Source: Halioglobus sp.
Lineage (GTDB): Bacteria; Pseudomonadota; Gammaproteobacteria; Pseudomonadales; Halieaceae
DNA: 64,000 bases
Assembly: GCA_020443425.1 (NCBI GenBank)
Contig: JAGRIE010000007.1
Span: forward strand, 70,868 to 134,867
Direction: 5' to 3'
Under the pieces are notes generated by a model that was not told the DNA's origin, made no database searches, and saw nothing but the letters and a program-made list of their open reading frames with translations. A program made the position numbers and the translations under genes. Below are positions 966 to 54,968 of this stretch, in pieces (positions within the stretch are counted from its first letter, which is position 1; each line of letters starts with the position of its first letter).

Positions 966-3493
<2,528 letters not shown>

Positions 3494-3508
3494 CTCATGT
3501 ACCCGGCC

Positions 3509-3700
3509 CTAATGAACCCAATATAAAATAACAACCCCGAACAGCATACTGCCCAGCCCGATATTGCGAATCACCCTGTCATCCATTCGCTCGGCCTGCG
3601 CCAGCATCGCCCGCCAGCGGTTGGGACTGATAAACGGCAGCATCCCTTCCACAATGAATACCAGCGCAATCGCCGCCGGCAATACTTGCCAGAAATCCAC
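3509..3700 (-). CDS. DUF2065 (YjeT-like) small membrane protein
   Basis: A 63-residue protein with two hydrophobic helices (around residues 3-20 and 46-62) separated by a short basic loop with the segment ISPNRWRAML. This matches the DUF2065/YjeT family, which sits between hflC and purA in many gammaproteobacteria; function unknown. I chose the GTG at 3700 because GGAGAG lies 3 bases upstream and the protein then has the usual size of about 60 residues; a longer frame begins at 3748 but adds a non-conserved polar extension. Confidence 0.82.
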   Translation of the reverse strand: MDFWQVLPAAIALVFIVEGMLPFISPNRWRAMLAQAERMDDRVIRNIGLGSMLFGVVILYWVH

Positions 3701-3787
3701 GAGCTCTCCAGGTTGAAACGCCAGGTCACTACCCGGCCCGATCCGCAAAGGCTGTCAGCCATCCGCGGCGAGCAGGGCAATCCCAGG

Positions 3788-4678
3788 CTAATTCGTTTCC
3801 GTTTCCGTACCGCCGCGAGAATCTTTCAGATAGCGGAAAAACTCGCTATCGGGCTGTACCAGCATAATATCACCGTTGCCCTGGAAAGCATTCTGATACG
3901 CTTTCAGGCTGCGGGTGAAGGCGTAAAATTCAGGATCCGCATTAAAGGCCTCGGCGTAGATACGGGTCGCGGTCGCATCCCCCTCACCCCGGATCAGCTC
4001 CGAGTCGCGGTAGGCGTTCGCTTTTAATACCGTCACCTCGCGGTCCGCCGCGGCCTGGATGCCCTCCGCCAGCTCCTGACCCTGTGAGCGGTGCTCGCGG
4101 GCCTCTTTCTCCCGCTCGGCGTTCATCCGGCGATACACGGATTCAGAGACATCCGGCGGCAGGTCGATCTGCTTGACGCGCACATCGACCACTTCGACAC
4201 CCAGTCCCTCCTGCGCGACTATCGTCAGCTCTTCCGTCAGCGCCTGCATCAACTCATCGCGCTCACCGGACACCACTTCCTGGATCGTGCGGATGGCGAC
4301 CTGGTTGCGCAAGCCGTCGTTGATACGCTGGGCCAGCAGTGTCATGGCGCGCGACTCCTCACCGTTGGTGGCGGTGTAGAACTTCTCCGTATCCGATACC
4401 TTGAACTTGGCATAGGAATCCACAATCAGCGCCTTTTTCTCCTGCGTGAAATAGCGCTCAGGCGTGGAATCCACCGTCAGTACCCGACCGTCGAATTTCC
4501 GCACACTGTTGACGAATGGAATCTTGATATGCAGACCCGGCTGGATATTTGGATTGACCACCTCACCGAACTGCAGCAGAACACCGCGCTCGGTCTCCTT
4601 GATCACATACAGCGAGTTACTCAGTATCAGCACCGCGATCAGCGCGATAAATATTAAGGTTACATTGCGACCTGACAT
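3788..4678 (-). CDS. hflC: FtsH-associated membrane protein HflC
   Basis: SPFH/prohibitin-family inner-membrane protein of 296 residues. With HflK it forms the large periplasmic HflKC assembly that surrounds and modulates the FtsH protease. One N-terminal membrane anchor (about residues 5-24, LIFIALIAVLILSNSLYVI) is followed by the band-7 domain beginning ETERGVLLQFGEVV and a helical region rich in Glu and Arg. It starts 2 bp after the hflK stop, so the two are almost certainly co-translated. Confidence 0.96.
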   Translation of the reverse strand: MSGRNVTLIFIALIAVLILSNSLYVIKETERGVLLQFGEVVNPNIQPGLHIKIPFVNSVRKFDGRVLTVDSTPERYFTQEKKALIVDSYAKFKVSDTEKFYTATNGEESRAMTLLAQRINDGLRNQVAIRTIQEVVSGERDELMQALTEELTIVAQEGLGVEVVDVRVKQIDLPPDVSESVYRRMNAEREKEAREHRSQGQELAEGIQAAADREVTVLKANAYRDSELIRGEGDATATRIYAEAFNADPEFYAFTRSLKAYQNAFQGNGDIMLVQPDSEFFRYLKDSRGGTETETN

Positions 4679-4680
4679 GA

Positions 4681-5838
4681 TTAGCGCCCTCCCCTGCGGC
4701 TATCGGAGGCAGCCGCGTCTCGGCGTAGCTGCTCAGTGACGGCATTGGTCAATTCACGTATGTTGGAGCTGTCCACCTTGATTTGGCCGGCGCTGGACGC
4801 GCTGCGCTGGCTCTGCTCGGCGAGCTTGTCCAGCGGCAGGTACATCACGTTATTACCGCCCTCGACGTCAACCATGACTTTGTTGGTCTGGCTGAGCACC
4901 GTCTGCACGGCATCCAGGTACAGGCGTTCGCGAGTCACCTCGGGCGCCTTTTTGTACTCCTCAAGCAGGCGGGAGAAGCGCTGCGCCTCACCCTCGGCGT
5001 TTGCGATCACCTCTTCCTTGTAGGCACTGGCCTCTTCAATCTGCCGCTGTGCACTACCGCGGGCCTCGGGTACGATGCCGTTGGCATAGGCCTGGGCTTC
5101 GTTCTGCAGCCTTTCCTCGTCTTCGCGGGCCTTGATAACATCGTCAAACGCCGCCTGCACCTGTGTTGGGGGTTTTGACTCGTCTATCGTCACCTTGCTG
5201 ACCAGGATACCGGTCTGGTAGAGGTTGATATACTCCTGCAGGCGCTGCTGCACATCGACGGCGATCTGCGCCCGCCCCTCGGTCAGCACCATATCCATGG
5301 TCGCGCCACCGACGACATGCCGCAGCGCACTCTGTGCGGCGTGCTGCAGCGAGCGCTCGGGATCGCGCACCTTGAGGATGAAATCGACAGGGTTGTCGAT
5401 CACATATTGCACCGAGAGTTTGACCTCGACGATGTTTTCATCCTGCGTCAGCATAATCTCGCGGAAGCTGCTGGAGCGAACCTTGGTGATATTCAGCAGT
5501 GTGACTTCGTCGACCAGCGGCGGATTCCAGTGCAGGCCGGGCTGCACGGTGTCGAGGTACTTACCAAAGCGCAGCACCACCCCGCGCTCCTGCTGGTCGA
5601 CCTGGTAGAAACCAAGCGCCGCCCAGATCACCAGTGCGACAACCAGCAGCACGCCCAGCGCAGCGCCGGAAAACCCGGACGCGCCACCGCTGCCGGAGGA
5701 GGAACCTCCGCCGAACAGCCCCCCCATTTTGGCCTGCAGTTTTTTCAGCGCCTCATCCAGATCGGGCGGGCCCTGATCGCCACCACCCCATGGGTCTTTT
5801 GGCTTGTTGTTACCGCCACCCGGTTCATTCCAGGCCAT
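4681..5838 (-). CDS. hflK: FtsH-associated membrane protein HflK
   Basis: Partner of HflC in the FtsH-regulating SPFH complex; 385 residues. The N-terminus is Gly/Asn-rich and cytoplasmic (MAWNEPGGGNNKPKDPWGGG), as is typical of HflK. A Ser/Gly stretch precedes the single membrane helix (about residues 62-82), then the band-7 domain with VDQQERGVVLRFGKY. The ATG at 5838 has AGGAG 6 bases upstream; an in-frame TTG two codons earlier is less likely because it would sit almost on the ribosome site. The gene follows hflX by 82 bp. Confidence 0.96.
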   Translation of the reverse strand: MAWNEPGGGNNKPKDPWGGGDQGPPDLDEALKKLQAKMGGLFGGGSSSGSGGASGFSGAALGVLLVVALVIWAALGFYQVDQQERGVVLRFGKYLDTVQPGLHWNPPLVDEVTLLNITKVRSSSFREIMLTQDENIVEVKLSVQYVIDNPVDFILKVRDPERSLQHAAQSALRHVVGGATMDMVLTEGRAQIAVDVQQRLQEYINLYQTGILVSKVTIDESKPPTQVQAAFDDVIKAREDEERLQNEAQAYANGIVPEARGSAQRQIEEASAYKEEVIANAEGEAQRFSRLLEEYKKAPEVTRERLYLDAVQTVLSQTNKVMVDVEGGNNVMYLPLDKLAEQSQRSASSAGQIKVDSSNIRELTNAVTEQLRRDAAASDSRRGGR

Positions 5839-5920
5839 ATGCAACTCCTAGTGTTGTCTCGAAAACAGTCTATCAAACTTTCGGCCCCGGGTACGCAGCA
5901 CAATGCGCGCACACCCGCCT

Positions 5921-7192
5921 TTAAAAAAGCGGTTCCGGGCCTTTCTTCATCAACCGGTTCCAGTCTGCACGCGGCAGTCTCACGCTCAAATGAGCGACAC
6001 CGTCATCGCCATAGTCTTCCGCCTCGACAGCACCGAGGCTGTAGAGTGCTGCCCGCAGGCCGCCCTCTTTTGGATCCAGGTACAGCTCTTCGGACACCAT
6101 GTCCTGGCCCACCAGTTCCGCGATAGCCTGCAACAACAGCTCTGTGCCCTCGCCGGTCGCGGCGCTGAGCCAGACCCGCTCCGGCCGGCCATCTGCATTC
6201 CGCTCCAGTCGCGGCGACTGCTCCAGCACATCTATCTTGTTGAACACCTGCAACTGGGGAATCTCTTCGGCGCCGATTTCAGCCAGCACGTCCTGCACCT
6301 GGTCTATATTGCGGCCCCTGTCTTCAGTGGCTGCATCCACTACATGCAACAGCAGGTCGGCATTCAGGGTCTCTTCCAGCGTCGCCTTGAACGCCTCGAC
6401 CAGCTTGTGCGGCAGATGCGCGATGAAACCCACCGTGTCGGCCAGCACCACCGGCCCGACATTTTCCAGCTCGACCCGGCGCAGGGTGGGGTCCAGTGTG
6501 GCAAACAACTGGTCAGCAACATATACGGTGGATTCAGTGATTCGGTTGAACAGCGTGGACTTCCCGGCATTGGTATAGCCCACCAGCGATACGGTGGGAA
6601 TCTCTGCCCGCGTCCGCGAGCGGCGCCCCTGCTCCCGCTGCTTTCGCACTTTCTCGAGCCTTGCGGTGATCGACTTCAGCCGCACCCGCAACAGCCTGCG
6701 GTCCGTCTCCAGCTGGGTTTCGCCCGGACCGCGCAAACCGATACCGCCTTTTTGCCGCTCCAGGTGAGTCCAGCCCCGCACCAGCCGAGTCGACATATGC
6801 TGCAGCTGTGCCAGCTCGACCTGCAGCTTGCCCTCGTGAGTCCTGGCCCGCTGCGCGAAAATATCCAGGATCAGGCCTGTGCGATCCAATACCCGGCACT
6901 GCAGCTCGCGCTCCAGGTTGCGCTCCTGGCTGGGACTGAGGGCGTGGTTGAACATCACGATTTCCGCGCATTCCGCGTGCACCTGCTCGCGGATCTCCTC
7001 CAGCTTGCCGCTGCCCACGAAGGTACGCGGATGCGGCGCTACACGAGCGCCCATCACAAAGGCCACCGGATCGCCTCCGGCAGAGAGCACGAGCTCCTCG
7101 AATTCACGGGGATCTTCGCGCTCCGATTCACTGGCAATGTTCAGGTGAACGAGCACAGCGCGTTCTCCCGAGTCGGGACGGTCAAAAAACAA
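5921..7192 (-). CDS. hflX: ribosome-associated GTPase HflX
   Basis: A 423-residue GTPase that binds the large ribosomal subunit and, in E. coli, splits stalled ribosomes under heat stress. The HflX N-terminal domain ends with the Gly-rich GGIGLRGPGETQLE segment; the G domain has GYTNAGKSTLFN (G1), DTVGF (G3) and NKID (G4). The start is TTG at 7192, preceded by AGAGG at 5 bases, giving MFFDRPDSGERAVLVHL, which aligns with the usual HflX N-terminus. It lies 65 bp downstream of hfq. Confidence 0.95.
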   Translation of the reverse strand: MFFDRPDSGERAVLVHLNIASESEREDPREFEELVLSAGGDPVAFVMGARVAPHPRTFVGSGKLEEIREQVHAECAEIVMFNHALSPSQERNLERELQCRVLDRTGLILDIFAQRARTHEGKLQVELAQLQHMSTRLVRGWTHLERQKGGIGLRGPGETQLETDRRLLRVRLKSITARLEKVRKQREQGRRSRTRAEIPTVSLVGYTNAGKSTLFNRITESTVYVADQLFATLDPTLRRVELENVGPVVLADTVGFIAHLPHKLVEAFKATLEETLNADLLLHVVDAATEDRGRNIDQVQDVLAEIGAEEIPQLQVFNKIDVLEQSPRLERNADGRPERVWLSAATGEGTELLLQAIAELVGQDMVSEELYLDPKEGGLRAALYSLGAVEAEDYGDDGVAHLSVRLPRADWNRLMKKGPEPLF

Positions 7193-30164: not shown

Positions 30165-31724
30165 TTAAAACGGATAGCCGGTGATCCTGCGGATGGCCCC
30201 GTACAGTGGGCTCAGCCTGGCGTACATCTTGAGGTAGACCTCTTTGTACAACCTGTCGTAGGTCTCGACGTTCGCCGCAATGGGCACAAAGGTATCACCG
30301 GTGCGTGTCATCTGCCGCAGTGCGGTGGCGTAATTCGGGTACAGGCCGACGCCCACAGCGGCGTTGATGGCCGCGCCCAGCCCGGATGTTTCGTAGGTGT
30401 GCGGGCGCTCAACGGCGAGCCCGAAGATGTCGGCGGTAATCTGCATGGCCTCGTCACTCTGCGAGCCGCCACCGGACACTTTCAGCGTCGTGATGCGGTG
30501 ACCGCTGCGCTGCTCCAGTCGCTCCTTGCCCTCGCGCAGTGCATACGCCAGCCCCTCTATGATCGCGCGGTAGATATGCGCGCGCGTGTGCACATCGCCG
30601 AAGCCGATGATCGCGCCCTTGGCCTCGGGGCCAGGGATGCGGACACCGGGCGACCAGTAGGGTTGCACCGTGAGGCCCATGGCGCCGGCGGGCACCTGCT
30701 TCAGCAGGTCGTCGAACAGGGTTTCGGTCTCCACCCCCAGCTTTGCCGCCAGGCGCGTCTCGTGTAAGCCGAACTCGCGCTTGAACCAGTTCACCATCCA
30801 GTAGCCGCGCTGCACAATAGTCTCCGAGTTGTAGGCGCCCGGAATCGCGGCCGGGTAGGCGGGGACATGCCTGATGGTCTCTATGTAGCGGGAGTGGGTG
30901 CTGTTGTACGTCGCCGTGGTGCCGTAACTCAGGCTGCCGGTATCCGGCGTCAGGCAGCCGGAGGCCAGCACCTCACAGGCTTTGTCGGCGCCGGCGGAGA
31001 TCAGCGGCAGCCCCGCCGGGATACCCGTCTGCTGCGCGGCCGCCTCGGTGATCACCCCCAGCGGTGATCCCGCCGGCACCAGCTCGGGCAGCTGGCTGCG
31101 CTTTATCGGCAGCGCGCGCCACTTCCAGTCCAGCGCATGTGCCCATTTGTGCCGCTTGAAATCAAACGGGATATACCCGACCTGGCTGGCCACCGAATCG
31201 ACAAATTTCCCGGTCAGCCGGTAGCTGAGATACCCGGACAGCAGCAGCAGTTTATCGGTTTTCTCCCAGATGTCAGGCTGCCGGTTCCTGATCCAGTTCG
31301 CCTCCGCCTGGCGGCGGAAAAAACGCACCGTTTCACGCTCCCCCGCCAGCGTCAGCAGCGCACCCCACAGCCCCATGCCGGGCAGTTCGTCCTCGAGACG
31401 CTGGTCCAGCCAGACAATGGCCGGGCGCAGCGGCCTGCCATCGGCGTCCAGGTTGACGACGGTAGCCCGCTGCGTGGTCAGCGCGACTGACTTGATCGCA
31501 CTGAGCGGAAAATCCAGCTGCGGCCACAAGCCGTGACAGGCCTCGCACAGCCTGTCCCAGAAGTACTCGACATGCTGTTCCGCCCAGCCGGGCTGCTCGG
31601 AGAAGTAGGGTTCGATCTCCACCTTGCTCTTGGCCACCAGCTCACCGTGGAGATCGAACACCAGGGCGCGGACACTTTGCGTGCCGTTGTCGATAGCCAG
31701 AACATACTCTCTGTTATCGTCCAT
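30165..31724 (-). CDS. FGGY family carbohydrate/polyol kinase
   Basis: An ATP-dependent sugar or polyol kinase, 519 residues from the ATG at 31724. The first phosphate-binding motif is [15 protein letters not shown] (about residues 9-23), and the C-terminal FGGY signature region includes [28 protein letters not shown] at 31748 overlapping the GlpD stop as GTGA is an alternative start; I prefer the ATG because GGGATCGGG precedes it and homology begins there. Next to a glycerol-3-phosphate dehydrogenase it may phosphorylate glycerol or dihydroxyacetone, but the substrate is inference. Confidence 0.88.
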
Positions 31725-31744
31725 ACCCGATCCCGTGGCGGTTG

Positions 31745-33346
31745 TCACGCTGTCGGCAGGTAGTAGTGCTGGCGCCAGATCTCCCGATAGCGCGCCTCCT
31801 CTGCCTGCCAGCGCGCATCATCCCAGCCCAGCTCGGCCTCGCAGATGGCCTGCAGCGCGGGAAATAAAGCCACTCCGCCCTGCTCCAGCAGCGAGCCGAG
31901 CCGCGTGCGGCGCAGCAGCAAATCATCCAGATGCACCACCGATTCATGGCGCGCAGCCCAGCGGCACTCGGCCAGGCAGAACAGTGTGTCGCCGATCAGC
32001 TGGCGCTCCCCGGCACTGGCCTCGGCCAACAGCTCCCGGGCGTGATCGCCGTACCGGCCTATCAGGCGCTGTGCCCAGCCCCTGTCCGCGGTGTCGAGTT
32101 GGTCAGCGCCGATGGACGGAGCCCGGAAAATGGCATCGCCGCTCTCTTTGACGGCGACAGGACCCAGCGCCGGCGCGGCCGCAGCCAGCGCGTCCAGCGC
32201 GATCAGGCGGAAGGTGGTGAGCTTGCCACCGCTGACTGTCACCAGCCCGCCGTCGACCCAGACCGCGTGATCGCGCCTCTCCTTGGAGGGATCGGTGGAT
32301 TTGTCGGAGCCGATCACCGGGCGCACCCCGGACCAGGTGGAGATAATGTCGTCTTCGGTGATATCCAGCGCCGGGTACATCAGGCGCACGATATGCAGCA
32401 GGTATTCCAGCTCCCGGGTATTGATGCTGGCCTCCGCATCGATATCGTCGCCGTGATCGAGATCCGTGGTCCCCACCACGGTCGCGCCCTCCCACGGGAA
32501 GATGAAAACCGGGCGCTTGTCCTCGGGGTGCAGCAGGGAGAGGGAATCTGTCACCGGCAGTTTCTGTCGTGGCAGCACCAGGTGGCTGCCGCGCAGCGGG
32601 CGAATACGCTTCTCGGGATTCACCTCGTTGCGCAGCCGGTCGGCCCAGGCGCCGGTCGCATTGATCACCGCCTTGCAGCGCAGTTCCAGCTGTGCGCCGC
32701 TGTCCACATTCTGCAGCACTACACCCGCCACCTGCCCCTGTTGTTTGATCAGTGACTGCGCCCGGGTGTAATTGATGGCCTCGCCGCCCGCGGCCATCGC
32801 CTCCTGCAGCACACGCAATACCAGGCGGGCATCGTCGGTGACGGTATCGGTGTAGTACATCGCACCGGTGACACCCTCAACGCTGACACCGCGGTAGTGC
32901 TGTGCAAACTTTTCCCGGCTGAAATAGCGATGATCCTTGATGCCGGCCAGCTTGTCGTACAGCCACAACACCATGCTGAACGGGATGCGACCGGGGAACT
33001 GCCCTTTGCGCAGCGTGAAATGGTAGCCCATCCGGTCAATCAGTCCCGGTGCCTCACGCAGCAGTCGCTCGCGCTCCTGCAGTGAATCCCGGGTCAGTTT
33101 GATATCGCCGTGGGAGATGTAGCGCAGCCCGCCGTGCACCATTTTCGAGGAGCGGCTCGATGTCCCCCAGGCGTAATCGCGCTGCTCGACCAACAGGGTT
33201 TTCAGGCCGCGCCGCGCCGCTTCGCGCAGGATTCCGGCGCCGATGATCCCGCCGCCGACAACCACCAGGTCCCAGTCCCGGTCACCGTCTGCCAGCGACT
33301 GCCACAGCGCCTCGCGCGACCTGAAGCCGACCCGGTTGGCACTCAT
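31745..33346 (-). CDS. glpD: FAD-dependent glycerol-3-phosphate dehydrogenase
   Basis: Membrane-associated flavoenzyme that oxidises sn-glycerol-3-phosphate to dihydroxyacetone phosphate and feeds electrons to quinone. The N-terminal FAD site is [20 protein letters not shown], followed by [13 protein letters not shown]; later SGVRPVIG and the C-terminal DAO_C-type helical domain fit GlpD/GlpA. Length 533 residues. It lies between the AGPS-like gene (28 bp upstream) and the FGGY kinase (21 bp downstream), all on one strand, indicating an operon. Confidence 0.88.
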
Positions 33347-33374
33347 AGCCGCGCCCCGCTCTGGCGGCAGCGCG

Positions 33375-34973
33375 TCACGGCAGTAACTTCCCGGGGTTCA
33401 TCTGCTGCCCGGCGTCGAACACGGTGAGCAGTCCCCGTATGGCCTCAATGCCCAGCTCGCCTTTCTCCGCCGACAGATACTTCGCGTGATCCTTGCCGAC
33501 ACCGTGCTGGTGGCTGATGGTACCGCCGAACCGGACGATTGCCTCCGCCCCGGCCGCCTTCAGTTTCTCCCAGCGCGCCTGCGTCTGTGCATAGGAATCG
33601 CCACAGCGGAAGATATACGTGGTGTAGACACTGGAGCCCTGCCCGTACATATGCGACAGGTGGGTGAACGCATGCACTTTTTCGCCCTCATCGGCCAGCG
33701 CATTGGCGATATCGCTCTGGATGCCGGCCGCCGCTTCCGCCACGCGCGCCCAGTCTATCGCCGTCTCCATCGTGTCCACCGCATAGCCGGCATCCCACAA
33801 CCCGTGACGCAGGTAGGGCGAGCGGAAGCGGCTGTGCTCCCACTTCTTGCCCAGCGCCGGCCCGGCACTGACCCCCTTGTGGCGTCTGGCGATCTGCCGG
33901 GTCAGGCGCAGGGCGGCGGCGCACTGCGCCTTGGAACCGGTGACGCCGAAGGTGAACATCACCTTGTCGTCGCCGACCCCGCGTTTCTTCAGGTACCACT
34001 CCAGCAGTGCAATCACGCGTGCGCTGCCGGCCAGCTTGAGCTGCGTGAAGGTCTCCATCTGGTTACTGAGCCGCATCATCGACAGCTGCATTTTGTTCTG
34101 CACGATCTCGCGTACCGCACCCAGTGCGACCTCCCACGACGGGAAGAACAGGACATGAAATGCCTCGTGCTCGGGCAGCGGTGTCACCCGCGCCTTGACC
34201 TCGGTGATGATGCCCAGCCGCCCCTCGGTGCCCAGGAAAAACTCTCGCAGGTCCGGCCCGGCGGAGGTAGCCGGAAAGGTGGGGATATCCAGTGTGCCCT
34301 TCAGGGTCTCTATGCGGCCGCCGGCAAACATCTGTTCGATGCGGCCGTAGCGCATGGATTGCTGGCCACTGGAGCGGCTGGCGACCCAGCCGCCGATGGT
34401 GGACAGCTCCCAGGATTGCGGGTAGTGCCCCAGCGTGTAACCGTGCACGGCCAGTTGCGACTCTATCTGGGGTCCTATCGTCCCCGCACCAAAGGTCGCA
34501 ATCTGGCTCTGGCGGTCCAGCGCCAGCAATTTGTTCATGCGGGTCATGTCAATGGTCAGCACCGGCCGCTCGGAGACTTCCGGGTTGATATGCCCGACCA
34601 CCGAAGTCCCGCCACCGTAGGGAATCACGTCGATCCCGTGTTCCTGCGCATGCTGCAGCAGGCCCCGCACCTCTTCACTGGTCTGTGGGAAAGCAACCGC
34701 GTCGGGAAACACGCCCAGCTCACCGCTGCGCAGCGCCAGCCAATCGGGCAGGCTCTGCCCGCGCGCATGGCGCAGGCGATCCTCGGCATCGACGCTGTAG
34801 AGGGCGCTCACCGGCAGGCGGGATTCCGGCACTTTCGCCAGCGCCTGCTCCAGGCTGGCATCCGGCAGGCGCGCCGCCCTGCCGACCAGGCCCTCGAGAA
34901 AGCCCAGCGCGGATTTGCTCAGCTCGTAGTCGAGATCGTTGCTGTCGTCACCCCAGCCATTCCAGCGCTTCAT
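33375..34973 (-). CDS. alkyl-dihydroxyacetone-phosphate synthase-like FAD-binding oxidase
   Basis: A 532-residue protein of the VAO/FAD-PCMH family that resembles eukaryotic alkyl-DHAP synthase (AGPS) more than lactate or glycolate oxidases. It begins MKRWNGWGDDSN, very close to the AGPS start; the FAD domain has PYGGGTSVVGH and YPQSWELSTIGGWVASRSSG, and the C-terminal motif is GGTISHQHGVGKDH, where AGPS has three consecutive His. AGPS exchanges the acyl group of acyl-DHAP for a fatty alcohol, giving ether lipids. The company of glycerol-3-phosphate dehydrogenase, which makes DHAP, supports a related role; a plain FAD-linked dehydrogenase remains possible. Confidence 0.82.
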   Translation of the reverse strand: MKRWNGWGDDSNDLDYELSKSALGFLEGLVGRAARLPDASLEQALAKVPESRLPVSALYSVDAEDRLRHARGQSLPDWLALRSGELGVFPDAVAFPQTSEEVRGLLQHAQEHGIDVIPYGGGTSVVGHINPEVSERPVLTIDMTRMNKLLALDRQSQIATFGAGTIGPQIESQLAVHGYTLGHYPQSWELSTIGGWVASRSSGQQSMRYGRIEQMFAGGRIETLKGTLDIPTFPATSAGPDLREFFLGTEGRLGIITEVKARVTPLPEHEAFHVLFFPSWEVALGAVREIVQNKMQLSMMRLSNQMETFTQLKLAGSARVIALLEWYLKKRGVGDDKVMFTFGVTGSKAQCAAALRLTRQIARRHKGVSAGPALGKKWEHSRFRSPYLRHGLWDAGYAVDTMETAIDWARVAEAAAGIQSDIANALADEGEKVHAFTHLSHMYGQGSSVYTTYIFRCGDSYAQTQARWEKLKAAGAEAIVRFGGTISHQHGVGKDHAKYLSAEKGELGIEAIRGLLTVFDAGQQMNPGKLLP

Positions 34974-45003: not shown

Positions 45004-48000
45004 TCAGGCTTTCAGTTCATGCTGTGCCAACAGCGTGTTCGATTCGTCGAAACAGGCTACGCGCACCCCGCCGGTGGTGGCCTCGACCCGCACAAACTGG
45101 GAGTAGTGATCAGACAGCAGGGTATTGGTGCACGCAATCGCAAGCGACGGCCTGGTATGCACGGGCAGCGCGTGGGACTGGTCCCAGAGGAAATCTTCAA
45201 CATGCGCATTGGCGAACGGCAGCGGCGCGTACAGCCCGGAGCTGACGATTTGCCAGACCTCCACCACCGGGTTGCTGCCGTCGAGGCTGAGCCGCAACCT
45301 GGACACCGCTGACAGGTGCGCGTCGCCACCGACAAAAACCACGTTGGCAATGCCGCGCTCGGCGATGAATTGCAGCAGGCTCTCCGCGGTTTGCGGGTAT
45401 CCGGCCCAGCCATCCTGCTGGCGCCAGGTGGCGGGCGCGCGCAGGTAGCTGATCGGCAGGGGTGCGAGGATACTGCCCGACACAATGAACTTCGGCGCCC
45501 GCGGATGATCCCGCTGTGCCGCCGACAGCCAGTCGGTCAGCGCACCGTACTGCGCATCTTTCATCAGGTGGTGGCGCCCGGGATCGTTGCTGTCGCGATA
45601 GTCGCGCTCGCTTCGGGTATCCGTCATGAAGACAGGGAAATCACACTCCTGCGGATGCGCCAGCGCGTAGTAGTGCAAGCTGCAGGCCGGCTCCCCATGC
45701 ACCGCCCGGGTGCTGCGTCCGGACCCCAGATACCGCGCCGCCATCGCCGCGGCGTAGTCATGGCTGTCCCCGGGCGTTACCGGCAGGTCGGTCGGCGAGC
45801 CCGACCAGTCATCGACCTTCTCGTGATCGTCCAGCGCAAAGTGTGTGGGGACCTGCTGCACCAACCGCGCGAAATTGGGCGAGCACTGTGCGCCGAAGGC
45901 GCGGTGATAGCGGTCACTATACTTGGCCTTCTGTGACTTCATCTCCACCAGCTGGTCGGTGGCGTCCGCGTAGATCTGGTCGCCGATCAGGAGCAGCATC
46001 TGCGCCCCTGTTACCGCCGTGACCTGGCGCTCGATGGCGGCGTACACCTTGTCCGACAGGGCGTTGTCGACTATGGAGCCGGGGTAGCGGCAGGAACCGA
46101 CGATAAAACACATACCCGGCCGCGGCTGATGTGCGGCGTCGGCACGCAACCTGTGCAACCAGGCCTCGTCTTCGTACGCCAGCGTGGCACCCGCGTCCAA
46201 CCGGTGATGCGACAGCCTGCCACGCAGCGACAGCCGGATGCGGCCGGGCGTGTCGACCTCCACGTCAATCATGCGGAACCGCGGTATGTCGGCACGGGAC
46301 GGCGCCGGCACCGCAAGTTCGAACTCTGCCACCTCCCGGCCACCCGACACCTCCAGCTTGTCGGGCTGGTAGGTGACGTTGGTCCTCAGCTCCGCCCAGA
46401 CCCGCAGCCTGATGCGCCCATCCTCCACCCAGGCTGCGCGCAGGATTGGCCCGGTCAATGGTTTCGCCAGATAGGGCTCCTGCCAATCGGGCTCGCCCTG
46501 TGCACCGGGGAAACTGTGGGGGTCGCGCAGAAAATTGACATAGTCCCCGAAGCAGCTTGCATGTGCGTTCTCCGCGAAGATCACATCCATGTGCCCGTAG
46601 TCCGGATAGATTTTGTAGCGCACCGGGATTCTGTCGCCCTGCGGCGCTGCGCCAGGTGGCGATGCAGGCGAGCCGTTCAGGATATCGTGCAGGCGCCTGG
46701 CCGAGCGTCTCGCCGAATGCGGATTGAACACCCGGCTGTCATTGCCGTGTATGAACAGGATGGGGAACTGCCAGTTGTTGCGTATATTGCTCGCCGTGAG
46801 GTAGGTGTTCTCACCCTCGCGATCGGTGATCCTGCGCAGGCTGGAGTAGTAATACAGATGCTGGTAGACGCTGGCAGGCGCAGGCCCCAACATCTGTGTG
46901 AACGCCTCATGCGTCCCATCCGACAGGTTTTTATGGTTCCACATCCGGCCGTACAGGAAGGTCATCCTGTCACAGATACCCTGCGCCAGCTCGCTGCCGC
47001 CAAAGTCGCGGTGATCATCCTTTTCCAGCTCATTGATCCTGGCGAGGCTGAACGCAAGCCGATCGAGGATGTTCTGCACACCACCGGCACCCTTCGCCGG
47101 ATTGGGCTCGAGAATCTCCTCCGGCACCCACTCGCGGTAGAAATTGCCAAATTTCGCCCGCAGGCGATTGGCGGGTGACGGCATCACCCAGGGATGTATC
47201 GCATTGGTCACGGCCGCCTCGATACGCGCACCGATATCCCTGTCCCTGAGTGCGGCCATCGCCAGCGTACAGGCGCCGACACAGTGTCCGAAAACGGCGA
47301 TTTTGTCGCGACCTGTCAGTTCACAGACCTTGCGGATGGCCGCGGGGATATCAAACCGGGCGATCTCGTCCATGCTCCACTGCCGGTCTTCCGGGCTCAG
47401 CGCCGGCAACACCAGGTTACTGAGACGGTAGTCCAGCAGCCAGACGTCGAACCCCTCGTCATAGCAGTAGGCTGCGAGGTTGGTAATACCCGGCAACCAG
47501 AAGATCTGCGAGCCCTGCGCGAGCCCGTGCAGCATCAACAGCGGTTTCGCGTTCTCCCGTCCGTAACGCGTCAGCCGCAGCGTGACCGACCGCGCAGACC
47601 CCTGTTGCAGGGGAACGTCAAAAAACACCGGCGCATCCGGCGCCACCACACCGCTTTTTGGCGTGTGCAGGGCCGCCGGCTGCGGCCGCTCAGGTGGCGA
47701 CTCACGGTACTCCAGCCCCCCGAACTCCCAGAAATTGGTGGCGAACAGCGACCGCGCCACAAACCCCGCAAGACCGCCGGCGAACAACAGGCTGCGCGGC
47801 AGATTGGCAGACGCTGTGATGGCCACGAGGCCAGGGTCCAGCAGCGACTCGGTATTCACCCCCAGCCGCCCGCCACAGGACTGGCCGTCGCGCTGGGCAA
47901 TCCGGATATCGAGGTTGAGCAGGCCGTCCCACATCCTGTCGATATCCGGGCTGTAGCCGAGTACCTTCTGGCCCTCAATCGAGACACCCGACGCCCGGTG

Positions 48001-50490
48001 GGTGAACGCATACGACAGCCGCCGGCAGCGGCTTTGCATCGCGCCGATATTGATAGAGACTCGAATCGAGTTGTACAACCGCTGTATAAACCCGCACGGG
48101 TCCGCCAGGAAACCGGGCTCATCCGGCGCGGCCAGGCGGATTCGCCCACGGCGCTTGCGGTAGGCGAGATAGGCCCGCCAGGCACCGATCATATCTGTCA
48201 GCCAGCTGTGCGCATCCTCGGCAAACACCGTGAACTGCCCCTGTAGCACCATCATCGGCGGCAGCGTGTCCACCAGTGCCGGTGGTACACCCACAGGGTT
48301 GTAAAGGTTCACCTGCTCAAGCGTCATCGGGTTGACATAGAGGTACATACTGGCCTTGAGCGGTGCGACCCCGGGGTTGTCCAGCCATGCCTGGGCGTCC
48401 TCGCTGGACGCGCTGACCTGCACCACAAGGCCGTCCCGCTGCAGCAGGCGCTGCTGCTGTTCCTCGTCCAGGTGTTGCCTGAGCGCAGGCACCAGACCAT
48501 CGAGCTTACCCGTCAACTGCTCCTGTAGCACGAACGCTGTCGGTCGCTGCGCATCCCGGTACCGTCGCGGCACCTCGCCCAGGTCGGCGTACCCGGGGCT
48601 GACCGTGGCGCTGCCGGTATCCTCGACCTCGCCCAAAATCAGGCCGGTATTGCGCCACGCCAGTGCCGCAATCGTCAGGAACGGATTCACCTCCAGCGCC
48701 GCGGGGATGATGGCGCCATCCATCACGAACAGGCCGTCATGCAACTGCCCGTCGCGCCGGAACACCTGTCCCCGGTGGTTGACCACACCGCCGCTGGCGT
48801 CATCGGCCATCGCGCAGCCACCCAGTGGGTGCACGGTGAGCACGCGCCGTGTCGGCATAGCGCCGTTGAGCGCATCCGCCGCCTGCGGGGGCAGCAACTG
48901 CCACAGCGGGTTGGGGGCGTACTGCCCGCCGTCCAGGCCCGCCTTTCGGTCCTGTGCCTGCACCAGCGCGTTGGACGCTGCCAAAGCGGCATTCTCACTG
49001 ATATTCGCGGCCGGGAACGCGATGTCCAGTGACTCTCGTCCGGGCGATAGCGAGAGCTGCCCGTCGGCGCCATCGTCACCCATGACCAGCAGCGCCTGGC
49101 AGTGATCCGCCAGCGCCAGCGGCGCCGCCAGTGGATCGTGGTCGCCGCCGTCGAACACCGCGGGGAGTTTGCGTTTGGTGATTCTCTGCAGCATGGCACT
49201 GCTCGTCACCAGCTCCGCGAACACGCGGCCCAGCGCCGCGGGAATACTGGCCTCTTCGATACTCAGCGCGCCGGTGCGGATGATGCCGGTGATGGTCGGT
49301 CCCACCGCTTTCGACGGAGCTCGCTGTTCGGCCTCGGCCACCGCGCCGACGCGCCGCCGCTGCCCGTAGCTCATGATGATGCCATCACCATTGGTGGAGA
49401 ATTTTTGTCCCAGCGCCTCGGAAAACTCCAGCACACCGGGCGCCTGCGACCGCAGCAGTATCTCGGTGCTGCCGAGGGAGCCGGCGGCGAGGATGACATT
49501 CTTCGCCAGTATGCGGTAGGTGTCGTACTCGACCGCACCCTGCGCATGCGCCCGGGGTTTTTCCGTGGGTTTGACCGTGGGGTGCAGTATCACAGCCCAG
49601 CGATAACCCTCATCGCGGGCTGCGTCCTCCGCCGCCAGTGGCTCGATGCGCTGCACCGTCGCGCCGGTATAGAAATCGGCGCCGCGGGATTTCGCCAGGC
49701 GCAGCAGATTGCGGTCCAGCGTGTTCTTGGCCCCCACGTTGCAGCCGGTGACACAGTTGCCACAGTCGGTGCAGGGGCTCTGCTCGACGCCGACAGGATT
49801 GGTGCGGGTGCGGGCGGTGTCGCCCGACGCCGTCGTCACTGCGATCCCGGCTGGCCTGGCCTCGTGACCCAGCGCTGCGCCCAGCTGTCGCAATGCCGTG
49901 TACTTGGGAAACTCACCGTCCTCGCCCCCGGTGTACCCGGCGACGCCGAGGCGCGCGGCCACTTCCGTATAGGCCGTATCCAGCAGCCCGGGCGCCTCCC
50001 TGAACTCCCTTGGCCACCGCGGTTTGCAAAAGACATGTGGCTCCGGCCGCTCGGCCACATTGGCGTTGATCAGCGAGGTGCCGCCGAGACCACTGCCGAC
50101 CAGCACATCAGCCGCTGCCCTGTCCCTGCCCTTGGCCCGGTCCTTATCCGTGGCCGCCGGATCCCTGTTTTCGACCCCGACATGGAGGTTGAACAGCGCG
50201 TCGGGGTAGCCGCTGGGCCCGGAACCAGTGCGGAGCATGCGGATATGTGACGGCAGGTCCTCAATATCGTAGGGGAAATCACCGAGACCGTACTCCCTGC
50301 CCCGCTCCAGCACCACCACGCCGGAGTCCCTGTCAGCGCCCGCAGCGCCAGCGCCGCGACCGGCAAGACGCATTGCCGCCACCGCGCCGCCGTATCCCGA
50401 GCCGATGACCAGGTAGTCGGCCCGCAGCAGGGTGTCCCCGGCCTGCCTGCCCGCCATCTTCGACTCGATAGGTACTGAAATCCTTTTCAC
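45004..50490 (-). CDS. three-domain protein: GMC oxidoreductase + alpha/beta hydrolase + PhoD-like phosphatase
   Basis: One uninterrupted frame of 1828 residues. Residues about 20-620 form a GMC flavoprotein related to cholesterol-oxidase-like enzymes: GSGYGG (30-35), the Cys-rich CTDCGNCVTGC (240-250) and HPLGGC (554-559). A linker region (about 650-950) precedes an alpha/beta hydrolase (about 960-1320) with HGLAQGS, nucleophile elbow GHCVG (Cys at 1070), Asp 1251 and His 1300. The C-terminal part (about 1455-1828) is PhoD-like: GSCRYP, GDQIYAD (1503-1509), LDDHEKVDDW (1553-1562) and GGDAHLS (1721-1727). There is no signal peptide, unlike usual PhoD enzymes. The GTG at 50490 has GGAGAG 6 bases upstream; the frame to 50640 is not supported. 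A two-component system lies divergent to it. Substrate unknown; a lipid or sterol ester is a guess. Confidence 0.85.
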   Translation of the reverse strand: MKRISVPIESKMAGRQAGDTLLRADYLVIGSGYGGAVAAMRLAGRGAGAAGADRDSGVVVLERGREYGLGDFPYDIEDLPSHIRMLRTGSGPSGYPDALFNLHVGVENRDPAATDKDRAKGRDRAAADVLVGSGLGGTSLINANVAERPEPHVFCKPRWPREFREAPGLLDTAYTEVAARLGVAGYTGGEDGEFPKYTALRQLGAALGHEARPAGIAVTTASGDTARTRTNPVGVEQSPCTDCGNCVTGCNVGAKNTLDRNLLRLAKSRGADFYTGATVQRIEPLAAEDAARDEGYRWAVILHPTVKPTEKPRAHAQGAVEYDTYRILAKNVILAAGSLGSTEILLRSQAPGVLEFSEALGQKFSTNGDGIIMSYGQRRRVGAVAEAEQRAPSKAVGPTITGIIRTGALSIEEASIPAALGRVFAELVTSSAMLQRITKRKLPAVFDGGDHDPLAAPLALADHCQALLVMGDDGADGQLSLSPGRESLDIAFPAANISENAALAASNALVQAQDRKAGLDGGQYAPNPLWQLLPPQAADALNGAMPTRRVLTVHPLGGCAMADDASGGVVNHRGQVFRRDGQLHDGLFVMDGAIIPAALEVNPFLTIAALAWRNTGLILGEVEDTGSATVSPGYADLGEVPRRYRDAQRPTAFVLQEQLTGKLDGLVPALRQHLDEEQQQRLLQRDGLVVQVSASSEDAQAWLDNPGVAPLKASMYLYVNPMTLEQVNLYNPVGVPPALVDTLPPMMVLQGQFTVFAEDAHSWLTDMIGAWRAYLAYRKRRGRIRLAAPDEPGFLADPCGFIQRLYNSIRVSINIGAMQSRCRRLSYAFTHRASGVSIEGQKVLGYSPDIDRMWDGLLNLDIRIAQRDGQSCGGRLGVNTESLLDPGLVAITASANLPRSLLFAGGLAGFVARSLFATNFWEFGGLEYRESPPERPQPAALHTPKSGVVAPDAPVFFDVPLQQGSARSVTLRLTRYGRENAKPLLMLHGLAQGSQIFWLPGITNLAAYCYDEGFDVWLLDYRLSNLVLPALSPEDRQWSMDEIARFDIPAAIRKVCELTGRDKIAVFGHCVGACTLAMAALRDRDIGARIEAAVTNAIHPWVMPSPANRLRAKFGNFYREWVPEEILEPNPAKGAGGVQNILDRLAFSLARINELEKDDHRDFGGSELAQGICDRMTFLYGRMWNHKNLSDGTHEAFTQMLGPAPASVYQHLYYYSSLRRITDREGENTYLTASNIRNNWQFPILFIHGNDSRVFNPHSARRSARRLHDILNGSPASPPGAAPQGDRIPVRYKIYPDYGHMDVIFAENAHASCFGDYVNFLRDPHSFPGAQGEPDWQEPYLAKPLTGPILRAAWVEDGRIRLRVWAELRTNVTYQPDKLEVSGGREVAEFELAVPAPSRADIPRFRMIDVEVDTPGRIRLSLRGRLSHHRLDAGATLAYEDEAWLHRLRADAAHQPRPGMCFIVGSCRYPGSIVDNALSDKVYAAIERQVTAVTGAQMLLLIGDQIYADATDQLVEMKSQKAKYSDRYHRAFGAQCSPNFARLVQQVPTHFALDDHEKVDDWSGSPTDLPVTPGDSHDYAAAMAARYLGSGRSTRAVHGEPACSLHYYALAHPQECDFPVFMTDTRSERDYRDSNDPGRHHLMKDAQYGALTDWLSAAQRDHPRAPKFIVSGSILAPLPISYLRAPATWRQQDGWAGYPQTAESLLQFIAERGIANVVFVGGDAHLSAVSRLRLSLDGSNPVVEVWQIVSSGLYAPLPFANAHVEDFLWDQSHALPVHTRPSLAIACTNTLLSDHYSQFVRVEATTGGVRVACFDESNTLLAQHELKA

Positions 50491-50675
50491 AACTGTCTCT
50501 CCGCTATAAATATGGCTCGGGTGCACGCGCCACCCCATGGAATGTAGCAGAGAACTCGCAATCGCATGGGCTTTCGGGGCAGAATACCGCCGTGCAGCCC
50601 GCTGGCAACGGCAAACACCGGCCCGGCGTGCTGTCGGCAATAGCCCCGAGATTTAACATGACCGGCGCACAGCTC

Positions 50676-50696
50676 TCACGCTAGAGTGTGGCGTGA
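50676..50696. promoter_or_regulatory. inverted repeat in divergent spacer
   Basis: TCACGC (50676-50681) and GCGTGA (50691-50696) form a 6-bp inverted repeat with a 9-bp spacer, 33 bp upstream of the histidine kinase ATG and in the spacer shared with the giant gene. It may be an operator for the neighbouring regulator; no binding data can be inferred from sequence alone. Confidence 0.35.
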
Positions 50697-50728
50697 ACCC
50701 GCTGTCGGCCGATACAGGGAAAGGAACC

Positions 50729-52087
50729 ATGCAACTGCTCGATAACGAAGTTGAGCCGATTGTCCTGCGCGAGTCCCTGCGCGCCCGCGTCACGGTGGCG
50801 CCTTTTTCCATGTTCGCGACTTTCCTGTCCATTTTCCTGTACATCCCGTTTATGGTGTTCCTGGGCGTCGATAACGGCGCCATCGCACTGTGGGCGGTGC
50901 CACTGGTACTGCTGATGCTGGCCAGGGGCATCCTGTCCGCCAACATCCGCGCCAAACTGGACTCGCTGTCCGATGCCGCCATGGAGAGGGCGAACCGGCA
51001 GCTCCGGTTCAGCAGTATCGCCAACCAGGTCACTGTCGGGCTGGGGATCTGGATTGTCCAGTCGCCGGAACCCGGTGCGCTGGTCATTCCGCTGTTCATG
51101 ACGCTGATCATGATCATCTGGTCGGTCGGCGTGCTCGCCAACCTGTTCTCCGACTTCCCGACGTTCATTCTCTCCATGCCCCTGATGATCGCTGAGAACG
51201 CCACGTTCTGGCTGGTACAGGGCGGCATTGGGCTGTCAATCGGGCTCAGCCTGCTCCTCGCCGCCGTACTGATGGCGATGCTGGTACAGCGCGGTTCGGC
51301 AATTTTCCGCGACAGCATCCTGATGCGTTTCGAGAAGGACCAGGCCCTGATCCGGGTTGAGACTGAACGCAGCAACACACAGACGGCATTGCGCCAGGTG
51401 CAGCTGGCCAATGACTCCAAAACGTATTTCATGGCGGCGGCCAGTCACGACATCAAGCAACCCCTGCACGCCCTCGGCCTGCTCACTGACACCCTGCTGA
51501 TGTCGGACCCGCCGCCGTCAACCGTGCCTATCCTGCAGATGCAAAAGGAGAGCATCTCCCAGATGACAGCGCATTTCGATGCGCTGCTGGATCTGAGCCG
51601 ATTTGAAGGTGGGCATTTTCAATTGAATATCCGCCACTTCCAGCTGGGGCCTTTCTGCGCGGGCATCGATCGCGAGATCGCACCCCTGTGCGCCGAGCGC
51701 GGCCTGGCGTGGCACATGGATGTCGATGACCTGCCGGTTGCCACCGATGAGGAGTTGTTACTGCGCCTGATACGCAATCTGTTAAGCAATGCCGTGCGCT
51801 ACACACAGGCCGGTTCGGTGTCTTTCTCCGCCAAACTCGTCGGCGAGCGAATCGAGTTCGCGATCGCTGACACCGGCTGCGGCATCGCCAGCAAACACCA
51901 GGAGTCGATCTTCCAGGAGTTTGTCCGCGTCACTGACAACGGGGTAAAGTCCCAGGGTGCCGGGCTCGGCCTGTCTATTGTCAGGAAAATCAACGAGGCG
52001 CTGGAACTGGACCTGCAATTGACATCGGCGCCCGGCGAGGGCACCCGGTTCACCTTCCACCTGCCGCAACCCGTCGCGGCGCAATAG
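50729..52087 (+). CDS. membrane sensor histidine kinase
   Basis: A 452-residue kinase with about five to six membrane helices in the first 200 residues and almost no extracytoplasmic domain, so the stimulus may be sensed in the membrane. The His box is SHDIKQPLHALGLL, the variant typical of kinases paired with LuxR-type regulators. The ATPase domain has LIRNLLSNAVRY, DTGCGIASK and GAGLGLSIV. The ATG at 50729 has AAAGGA directly upstream. It converges with the regulator gene, separated by 5 bp, and diverges from the giant gene. Confidence 0.9.
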   Translation: MQLLDNEVEPIVLRESLRARVTVAPFSMFATFLSIFLYIPFMVFLGVDNGAIALWAVPLVLLMLARGILSANIRAKLDSLSDAAMERANRQLRFSSIANQVTVGLGIWIVQSPEPGALVIPLFMTLIMIIWSVGVLANLFSDFPTFILSMPLMIAENATFWLVQGGIGLSIGLSLLLAAVLMAMLVQRGSAIFRDSILMRFEKDQALIRVETERSNTQTALRQVQLANDSKTYFMAAASHDIKQPLHALGLLTDTLLMSDPPPSTVPILQMQKESISQMTAHFDALLDLSRFEGGHFQLNIRHFQLGPFCAGIDREIAPLCAERGLAWHMDVDDLPVATDEELLLRLIRNLLSNAVRYTQAGSVSFSAKLVGERIEFAIADTGCGIASKHQESIFQEFVRVTDNGVKSQGAGLGLSIVRKINEALELDLQLTSAPGEGTRFTFHLPQPVAAQ

Positions 52088-52092
52088 CGCGC

Positions 52093-52746
52093 TCAGTCGA
52101 GCAGTTGCAGCTGGCGGGATTTCAGAATGGCCTGGGCGCGGTTGTTGACGCGCAGCACCTGGTAGATGCTGTGCAGGTGCGTTTTCACCGTGCCCTCGGC
52201 CATATCGAGGCGCCGGGCAATGATTTTGTTGGGTACACCGAGCATCAACTGATCGAACACCTGCTGCTGCTTGGGCGTGAAACGTATGGTCTGGTCCGGT
52301 ATGCCGCACTGCACCTGCGTCTTCTCTACCGGCTCATACCCCATCGAACGGGCCGCTGCCGGGGGAATGTAGACACCGCCGTCGAGCACCGTGCGGATGG
52401 CATCCACCAGCACTTGCATCGAAGCGCTTTTTGAGACAAATCCATGCACGCCGTGCTCGAAACACTCGGCGACGATATCGTTGGAATCCGTGCCCGAGAA
52501 CACCAGCACGGGTACTGCGGGAAAGTGCTCGCGGACATAGGCCACACCGCGCGAGCCGGTGATGTCCGTCAGGCTGAGATCGAGGACCAGCAGGTGATAG
52601 CCGGCGTCCTGTTCCAGCACCTCAATGAGTTCGCTGAAACAGTTGGCGGTGGCCACGTCGTCGATCACGCCGAGGGAAAGCAGGGATGTGACTACGGCCC
52701 CGCGTATTACCGGGTGGTCATCAGCGATGAGGGCGCGGGTTGAAAT
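52093..52746 (-). CDS. LuxR-family response regulator, apparent ATT start
   Basis: A 217-residue NarL/FixJ-type regulator. Receiver: ALIADDHPVIRGA acidic pocket, LLVLDLSLTDITG with the phosphoacceptor Asp, GFVSKSAS with the conserved Lys. Output: FTPKQQQVFDQLMLG and DMAEGTVKTHLHSIYQVLRV. The first ATG/GTG/TTG in frame is a GTG at 52668, which would remove the DDHP pocket. The only codon that restores a full receiver is ATT at 52746, with GGAG 7 bases upstream and a stop codon a little further up. Likely partner of the convergent kinase. Confidence 0.8.
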   Translation of the reverse strand: MSTRALIADDHPVIRGAVVTSLLSLGVIDDVATANCFSELIEVLEQDAGYHLLVLDLSLTDITGSRGVAYVREHFPAVPVLVFSGTDSNDIVAECFEHGVHGFVSKSASMQVLVDAIRTVLDGGVYIPPAAARSMGYEPVEKTQVQCGIPDQTIRFTPKQQQVFDQLMLGVPNKIIARRLDMAEGTVKTHLHSIYQVLRVNNRAQAILKSRQLQLLD

Positions 52747-52992: not shown

Positions 52993-54968
52993 ATGCTCAA
53001 CCCGGATACCCTCTCGCAACTCCAAGGCCTGAAGTCGCAGATGGAGGCCGAGAAAGAACGCGCCGAAGCGGTCGTCAAAGGCACCCAGGCCCGCTACGGT
53101 TTTGCGGTGCTGGACGATGGCCGGGAGATCTTCATTCCGCCGCAGGAAATGCTGAAGGCCTTCCCCGACGACCGGGTGAAAGTCTGCATACGCCCCACCA
53201 AAGACAACAAAACCATCGCCGACATTGAAAAGCTGGTGAGCAGCCCGCTGGTGGATTTCACTGGCCGCTGTGTGCGCAAGGGCAAGGCTGTATTCGTCGA
53301 GCCGGACCTGCCCCAGCTGAACCGCTGGCTGTTCATCCCGCCCCAGGCGCGCAACGGCGCCAAGGAGGGCGACTACCTGCGCTGTGCCATCCTGCGCCAC
53401 CCGATCCGCGACGGCAAACCGCAGGCCAAGGTGCTTGCGGTCATCGGCGACGACAACACACCCGGTATTGAAAACCTCTACAGCATGGCCAAGTACCGGC
53501 TGCCCACGCAGTGGAGCAGTGCCGTGAAAGCGGAGGTGCAAGCGGTGCTGGCGGAGAATGCCCCGCTGGCAACCCAGAAACGCAGGGATCTCACTGACCT
53601 GGAATTCGTGTCCATCGATTCGACCAAGACACTGGATATCGACGATGCGCTGTACGAAACGAGATCAGCACCGATGGCTGGATACTGTTTGTGGCGATTG
53701 CCGATCCCACCGCCTGCATCAAACCCGGCTCCAGCCTGCATCGCGATGTGGCGGCGCGCGGCACTTCCGTGTATTTCCACGGCGACGTGCTGCCGATGCT
53801 GCCGGAAGAGCTGTCGCAGGATACCTGTGCACTGTCCGAGGGGGTCGACCGCGCCGCGCTGGTGTGCAAGATCGCCATCAGCGACAGCGGTGAGATCGGC
53901 GACTATGAGTTTATCGAGGCCACCGTCCGCTCGCGTGCAAAACTGTCGTATTTTGCTGTCGATCGCTACCTGAACGGCCAGTATGACGAGTTGATGAGCC
54001 ACGCCTCACCGCTGGAGACCCTGTACCAGGTGTACCGCGCACTGCGCGCGCAGCGCGAGCGCAACAACCTGGTCATGGAGGATCGCCAGGAATTCCGCTG
54101 GGTACTGAATGACAACAAGCAGATCGAGAGCATCGAACCCACCGAAAAGCTGCTGTCGCAGAGACTGGTGGAAGAGTGCATGGTCGCCGCCAATCGCTGT
54201 GGCGCCCGCTTTCTGGCCAGCCATCACGCGAGCGGGCCCTTTGTGTCGCACCCGGGCTTCCGGGCTGATCGCGCCGAGGAGGTGCGGAAATTCCTCACCC
54301 TGCACGCCCCTGAACTCGCGGACATCGACCAGACCACTGTGACGGGCTATCGCGATATCATGCGCGGACTCGCGGCCTCTGAACAGACCCTGCCCCTGCG
54401 CACCATGGTTAACCGCCTGCTGACCCGGGCCGAGCTGTCCTGCGAACCGGCGCCGCACATGGGGATGGCACTGGATTGCTACACCAATTGCACATCGCCG
54501 CTGCGCAAGTATGTCGACTTTCTCGCGCACCTGCAGATCAAGGCAGTACTGCAGGGTAGTGAAGCCAAAGTCGTCGATCCGCACACACTGTCTGACCTGA
54601 AACTGCGGCTAAGTGCCTGTCGCTCGGCGACACTGGAGGCGGAGCGCTGGCTGGCAAGCAATTACCTGAAGCGCATCACCAGCGACACGGCCGTTGTTTT
54701 CAAAGCCACCATCACTCACGTCACCAGCGGCGGCTTTACTGTGCGACTCGATGACAACGGCCTGACCGGCTTCGTGGACCTGCGCCAGGACCCGGAGAAA
54801 TTCAGTTACGACAAATGGACGGCCAGCCTCACCAGCACCACACGCCGCTTTCAACTGGACCAGACGGTGGAATTGCGGTTTCTGGGCGCGGAACCGGACA
54901 CCGCGTACCAATCCCGCTTCAAGCCGGTCGAGGGTTGCGGCGCGAAAGCCGCGGCGCCGGAGCGCTAG
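52993..54968 (+). pseudogene. RNase II (VacB/RNB) family exoribonuclease with a one-base frameshift
   Basis: 3'-5' processive exoribonuclease. The first frame (52993 to about 53660) encodes the N-terminal RNA-binding part and the catalytic SIDSTKTLDIDDALYE; the second frame (from about 53661 to 54968) continues EISTDGWILFVAIADPTACI and then the rest of the RNB domain and an S1 domain (about FKATITHVTSGGFTVRLDD). Restoring one missing base near 53659-53661 gives a full-length protein of 658 residues, with exactly the E. coli spacing between DDAL and VAIADP. No slippery heptamer is present, so a mutation or sequencing error is more likely than programmed shifting. As read, the product would end soon after the active-site Asp residues. 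Confidence 0.85.

Follow-up and report, generated by a model that had tools for sequence, protein, structure and literature searches.

A single gene of Halioglobus sp. joins a GMC-type flavoprotein, an acid-lipase-fold hydrolase, and a PhoD-type metallophosphoesterase in one polypeptide, and it looks like the fully fused form of a conserved, uncharacterized three-enzyme module. We lean toward the view that the fusion is a cytosolic protein whose three enzymes form a module for a single metabolite that is hydrophobic and phosphorylated and bears an ester or thioester bond. The gene lies in a stretch of 64,000 nucleotides (contig JAGRIE010000007.1 of assembly GCA_020443425.1), referred to here as the window, and the features discussed below are compiled in Table 1. 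A literature search, with subscription papers mostly outside its scope, returned no title or abstract on this three-domain architecture. A preceding reading of the window, made from its sequence only, did not know the arrangement as characterized.

One frame encodes three enzymes

The frame is uninterrupted over its whole length, and a GGAGAG-type ribosome-binding site lies upstream of the GTG start. The start position is shared with two Halioglobus relatives, the N terminus being near-identical; the widest open reading frame at the locus begins with a TTG at 50640 (1878 aa), and its extra 50 residues are unsupported by these two relatives. Pfam places GMC_oxred_N (residues 25 to 348; 50.4 bits, cutoff 23), GMC_oxred_C (499 to 611; 51.1 bits, cutoff 24.6), Abhydrolase_1 (982 to 1305; 55 bits, cutoff 25.8), and PhoD (1489 to 1756; 69.8 bits, cutoff 27) in this order, all above their cutoffs. 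Translation, Pfam, and full-length relatives hence bear out the sequence-only reading of a single intact frame of 1828 residues that joins three enzymes, and every motif it had named is present, namely, GSGYGG, HPLGGC (at residue 554), GHCVG (1068), GDQIYAD (1503), DDHE (1554), and GGDAH (1721). Its remark that an export signal is lacking agrees with our crude hydropathy scan, in which no N-terminal hydrophobic segment was seen.

Full-length relatives with 54 to 58% identity are encoded by Halioglobus japonicus BC5_1 (L003, 1800 aa) and a Halioglobus MAG (L004, 1818 aa). Others, at ~25 to 33% identity, come from a Comamonadaceae bacterium (L006, 2036 aa), Ensifer plasmids (L041 and L063), and genomes of the same family (G024, G731, and G732), the same order (G056), and the same class (G215 and G199), and the domain order is the same in the distant relatives from Comamonadaceae, Ensifer, and other orders; a further genome of the class (G094) has a broken copy. 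At an E value of ≤1e-20, the window protein matched 8 of 140 genomes of the family, 13 of 369 genomes drawn from the class, and 7 of 299 drawn from the phylum, where each count includes the host genome and not all matches have PhoD. The host genome itself (4.33 Mb) has one fusion gene and one additional GMC match. In the order of genome G467, 40 of 297 genomes gave a match when L041 served as the query (E ≤ 1e-40, with scoring of two candidates in each genome), and no three-domain frame was among the matches listed, the longest frame there having 1432 aa. Among 72,556 plasmid records, 55 matched, and the 6 in which a single place accounts for 80% or more of the query are all from Ensifer. The full three-domain fusion is scattered, not common. 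Carriage by phages was considered as well and rejected, the search having given two records with a 9% match each.

Table 1. Features of the fusion gene and its regulatory neighbors (positions in the window)
Feature	Position	Strand	Remarks
GMC-hydrolase-PhoD fusion gene	45004..50490	-	GTG start, 1828 aa; open frame and translation, relatives
GMC flavoprotein domain	48601..50430	-	~residues 21-630; His554 and Asn602 invariant (28/28)
Ferredoxin-like Cys motif, candidate Fe-S site	49741..49773	-	C240-x2-C243-x2-C246-x3-C250; invariant (28/28)
Middle domain without Pfam match	47641..48600	-	~residues 631-950
Acid-lipase-fold domain	46411..47640	-	~residues 951-1360; Cys1070, His1300, Ser1252 at acid position
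PhoD-type metallophosphoesterase part with N-terminal beta domain	45007..46410	-	~residues 1361-1828
Membrane sensor histidine kinase, divergent neighbor	50693..52087	+	HisKA, HATPase_c; four hydrophobic segments
LuxR-type response regulator	52093..52668	-	Response_reg, GerE; relatives in like neighborhoods elsewhere

The three enzymes recur fused, half-fused, or as neighbors

The trio was tallied over 34 loci in which a GMC part and a hydrolase part are both present; these were collected mainly with the three-domain query, and the tally is therefore biased toward fused copies. Left out were loci with GMC in which the hydrolase part was not found (L002, L013 to L018, L027 to L029, L069, and L073), repeat genomes (L001, L008, and L009, together with short loci from the genome searches), the Ensifer adhaerens records H3 to H6, a second R. 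leguminosarum record (H13), and all relatives from the order of G467 except G467 and G647. PhoD is fused at 15 of the 34 loci (the window, L003, L004, L006, L053, L054, L055, L056, L057, L088, L089, G730, L041, L063, and L064), two of which are broken (L056 and L064) and one of which is apparently divided between contigs L090 and L091 (G730). At 12 of the 19 nonfused loci, a metallophosphoesterase of one of three sequence types is at most two genes away. It is PhoD-type in L065 (31 bp apart) and L059 (22.5 bits, below the cutoff of 27). Pfam identifies it as calcineurin-type in L062, L076, and L066, where it comes after the gene for a RoxA-like cytochrome c, and homology to L062 puts L007, L058, and L071 in the same class. 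The third type, of 613 aa and without a Pfam match (L077, L068, L072, and L080), was identified by its GNHDWYDG and GDxH motifs and the annotation of the L077 member as "metallophosphoesterase." In L072 and L080, which were counted as separate genes, GMC, phosphoesterase, and hydrolase are three individual neighboring genes. At the other seven loci (L060, L061, L070, L078, L079, L042, and L005), tblastn with 11 phosphoesterase queries and limited Pfam scans found no phosphoesterase in the DNA covered.

Because relatives have the same enzymes partly fused or as neighboring genes, the trio appears to be a real working unit, and the recurrence lends support to the earlier idea that the three activities are related. 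It is imaginable, if unlikely, that the three domains are only produced together and have separate substrates, the fusion serving a shared regulation or location and not a sequential pathway. The phosphoesterase type does vary between lineages, and 7 of the 34 loci have no phosphoesterase in view; however, a phosphoesterase accompanies the two enzymes at 12 of the 19 nonfused loci, compared with a chance of about 1% among four neighbors at each locus (a rough, post hoc figure that assumes ~4000 genes and is based on the 12 such domains of the host genome, 4 matching PhoD and 8 matching Metallophos), which favors one task.

In a tree of GMC domains with 37 rows, the fused proteins and G467 form one side of a branch with a support of 91/79, which was not starred, and the five named rows with calcineurin-type partners form one clade (99/93), L066 not being among those rows. 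A clade of the fused proteins without the split G467 was rejected (p-AU, 0.002). The tree is compatible both with a single fusion and a later split and with two fusions.

A ferredoxin-like cysteine motif in the GMC domain

The catalytic pair of GMC oxidoreductases is present, and within the same domain, a CxxCGxCxxGC motif is likewise kept in all aligned sequences. A profile search with this motif matched 4Fe-4S proteins (best E value, 0.0018). According to PMC6719666, Cys212, Cys218, and Cys222 of the FAD-glucose dehydrogenase from Burkholderia bind a 3Fe-4S cluster, and the spacing of these residues as given there (6, then 4) is that of C240, C246, and C250 in 28 of 28 sequences. FAD-glucose dehydrogenase 6a2u is not among the 50 matches listed for the motif profile, and the shared register is one of spacing alone. 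In the fold list for the GMC domain, fructose dehydrogenase comes first, tied with choline and alcohol oxidases. Since the flavoenzyme has an Fe-S-type cysteine motif, a dehydrogenase fits at least as well as an oxidase, and the GMC domain may belong to the Fe-S dehydrogenases and not to the oxidases; the earlier assignment as a flavin oxidoreductase stands. The ties in the fold list and the missing 6a2u match weaken the Fe-S cluster part of this reading.

The catalytic subunits of FAD-glucose and fructose dehydrogenases have the GMC fold, the His/Asn pair, and the spacing of three cysteines in common with the fusion protein, whereas the fourth, ferredoxin-like cysteine sets the fusion protein apart. 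Unlike these enzymes, the GMC domain is joined to two further enzymes, and no heme c or small subunit was found among the window neighbors scanned. Cytochrome c type proteins are encoded near GMC-hydrolase genes in L066 (11209 to 13140, RoxA-like) and L061 (5966 to 7021, CCP_MauG), and these are possible electron partners. At three other loci, a single-domain GMC gene with four cysteines is arranged in tandem with the GMC-hydrolase gene (L005, 4753 to 10118; L068, 2312 to 7601; and L042, 2998 to 8017, a plasmid record of Leptospira borgpetersenii).

A cysteine nucleophile on an acid-lipase fold

The hydrolase domain has the acid-lipase fold. The catalytic columns of the GMC and hydrolase domains are invariant in the 28 aligned sequences, with cysteine as the hydrolase nucleophile throughout, and the acid position is Asn in 25 sequences and Ser in 3 (the window protein and its two closest relatives). 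Alignment with gastric lipase assigns the acid position to residue 1252, which is Ser in the window protein, Asp1251 being merely adjacent; the Asp that the first reading had named together with the His, in order, is therefore doubtful. With Ser at this position, the catalytic triad of the window protein may be weak or changed. Because of the cysteine nucleophile and the Asn or Ser at the acid position, thioester chemistry or acyl transfer is at least as likely as the ester hydrolysis that had been put forward together with thioester hydrolysis. Gastric and lysosomal acid lipases, which are among the top PDB sequence relatives, use a Ser nucleophile and Asp, whereas the fusion hydrolase has Cys with Asn or Ser. 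Cys1070 matches the cysteine nucleophile of PHA synthases, but the score for class III PhaC in NCBIfam is 19.9 bits, with a cutoff of 365.3, and the Asp is not kept.

One might suspect a module for sterol esters, with the GMC domain as cholesterol oxidase, a hydrolase that cleaves sterol esters, and a phosphatase for sterol phosphates. The closest PDB sequence relative of the GMC domain is indeed GMC-type cholesterol oxidase (E = 1.8e-49; HPLGGC and the Asn are kept), acid lipases are relatives of the hydrolase, and cholesterol oxidase (NF058674) is the top NCBIfam model. However, that match reaches 136.6 bits against an equivalog cutoff of 850, the aligned cholesterol oxidase is without the cysteine motif, and neither the Ser nor the Asp of acid lipases is kept. 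Opposite Glu361 of cholesterol oxidase, the window protein has Glu and some relatives have Gln (judged by eye). We regard this explanation as improbable, and the plain label of cholesterol oxidase/esterase was rejected, the scores being far below the cutoffs and the sites altered.

The phosphoesterase part and the middle domain

In the PhoD part, Cys1467, Asp1504, Tyr1507, Asp1509, DDHE (1554 to 1557), Asp1723, and His1725 are kept in 12 of 12 aligned sequences, and some of them are presumably metal ligands. PhoD-like phosphatases are typically exported by a signal peptide. The PhoD part differs from the alkaline phosphatase PhoD (2yeq) in that it lies inside a fusion for which the hydropathy scan shows no export signal, and the fusion protein scores 17.8 against the NCBIfam PhoD equivalog cutoff of 1000. 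The middle domain is predicted to be mixed alpha/beta (block pLDDT, 31 to 88); by eye, a stretch resembling it is fused to GMC in L080 and separate from GMC in L072, in an open reading frame between the hydrolase and phosphoesterase genes (5723 to 7162). Structure prediction, which had been proposed as a check on the completeness of the sites, supports the folds, with a confidence that is modest at the cysteine loop (68 to 71) and below 50 at parts of the PhoD site.

Regulators and other neighbors

The two-component genes that adjoin the fusion gene (Table 1) had not been part of the sequence-only reading. The Pfam match of the LuxR-type regulator begins at profile position 24, and its true start may be upstream. 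Relatives of the window kinase adjoin the gene in 12 loci, a count from which weaker matches in L072 and L058, probably general kinases, were omitted, and a LuxR-type regulator is adjacent or one gene off in 12 loci. One or both are present at 11 of the 15 fused genomes: in L055, whose contig stops behind the gene, only the kinase is present, and in G730 the regulator is beside the PhoD end and a kinase relative is on a different contig. At the three Ensifer loci, a cyclase-AAA gene takes the place of the kinase and regulator (in pieces in L064), and L056 begins inside the fusion gene. Kinase and regulator also occur at the calcineurin-type loci L062 and L071. The closest NCBIfam model for the kinase core is that of the NahK/ErcS family, whose cutoff of 400 bits is not reached (188.3 bits). 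In G009 and G014, close kinase relatives are not accompanied by the fusion gene: G009 has one of 57% next to a different gene, on a contig of 4.1 kb, and G014 has one of 52% together with a 62% regulator relative, on a contig that ends at the kinase and in a genome in which the fusion gene was not found; the linkage is therefore strong but nonexclusive, and an exclusive one is ruled out. In L058, the region from 1540 to 6587, next to a GMC-hydrolase gene, encodes a TonB-dependent receptor together with a histidine kinase and a response regulator of a different type (Trans_reg_C).

The fusion or GMC-hydrolase gene is flanked by a gene for a class III cyclase with AAA_16 in L041 (5549 to 9559), L063 (3545 to 7558), L065 (13386 to 17465), and L007 (7838 to 10996). 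These cyclases, as well as the kinase and LuxR-type regulator at other loci, would suit a signaling module in which the phosphoesterase cleaves a cyclic nucleotide or another signal phosphate and in which the cyclases and kinases act as its partners beyond any regulatory role. However, the window-type kinase and the cyclase were not found together at one locus, which is better explained by alternative regulators, and PhoD enzymes are not known to hydrolyze cyclic nucleotides; a signaling module is thus very improbable in our view.

Farther along the window, an RNase II/R-type gene (52993 to 54968, plus strand) is divided between two overlapping frames, with OB_RNB and CSD2 in 52993 to 53973 and RNB and S1 in 53691 to 54968, by either a sequence error or a real frameshift. 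On the minus strand, an FGGY kinase, a DAO/DAO_C protein (glycerol-3-phosphate dehydrogenase-like), and an FAD-linked oxidase are encoded in a row (30165 to 34973), and a DAO/DAO_C gene is near the GMC pair of L005, too. Although the assembly is in 222 contigs and the RNase gene is split, an assembly or sequencing artifact or a chance open frame is practically dismissed as the source of the fusion by full-length relatives at 54 to 58% identity and by distant ones in other orders and classes, all from independent genomes, so that a join of neighboring genes is ruled out.

Proposed function and significance

Our model builds on the domains, their conserved sites, the model folds, the recurrence of the trio both fused and separate, and the linkage to regulators. 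The GMC domain would oxidize a secondary alcohol with FAD, and the electrons would pass via the Fe-S cluster to an acceptor protein and not to oxygen. The acid-lipase-fold domain would form an acyl-enzyme on Cys1070, followed by hydrolysis or transfer of the acyl group, and the PhoD domain would cleave a phosphate ester with a metal pair; the three steps may follow this order on a shared substrate. The sensor kinase and the LuxR-type regulator would probably turn the gene on upon a cue, perhaps the substrate. More tentatively, the trio as a whole could be an unrecognized, widely scattered module for undescribed bacterial phospho-ester lipids or signals, composed of an Fe-S GMC dehydrogenase, a Cys-His-Asn acid-lipase-fold enzyme, and an interchangeable metallophosphoesterase and controlled by dedicated regulators of the two-component or cyclase type.

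The Fe-S-like motif and the Cys/Asn (or Cys/Ser) site depart from the names "GMC oxidoreductase" and "alpha/beta fold hydrolase" in the records, and if true, a lipase fold that carries Cys/His/Asn would be novel as a catalytic variant. Since three steps can be tested at once via one gene, the hunt for the substrate is practical. The recurrence of the enzymes as fused, half-fused, and separate genes, with a phosphoesterase of three types, is good comparative evidence for a pathway that has gone unnoticed.
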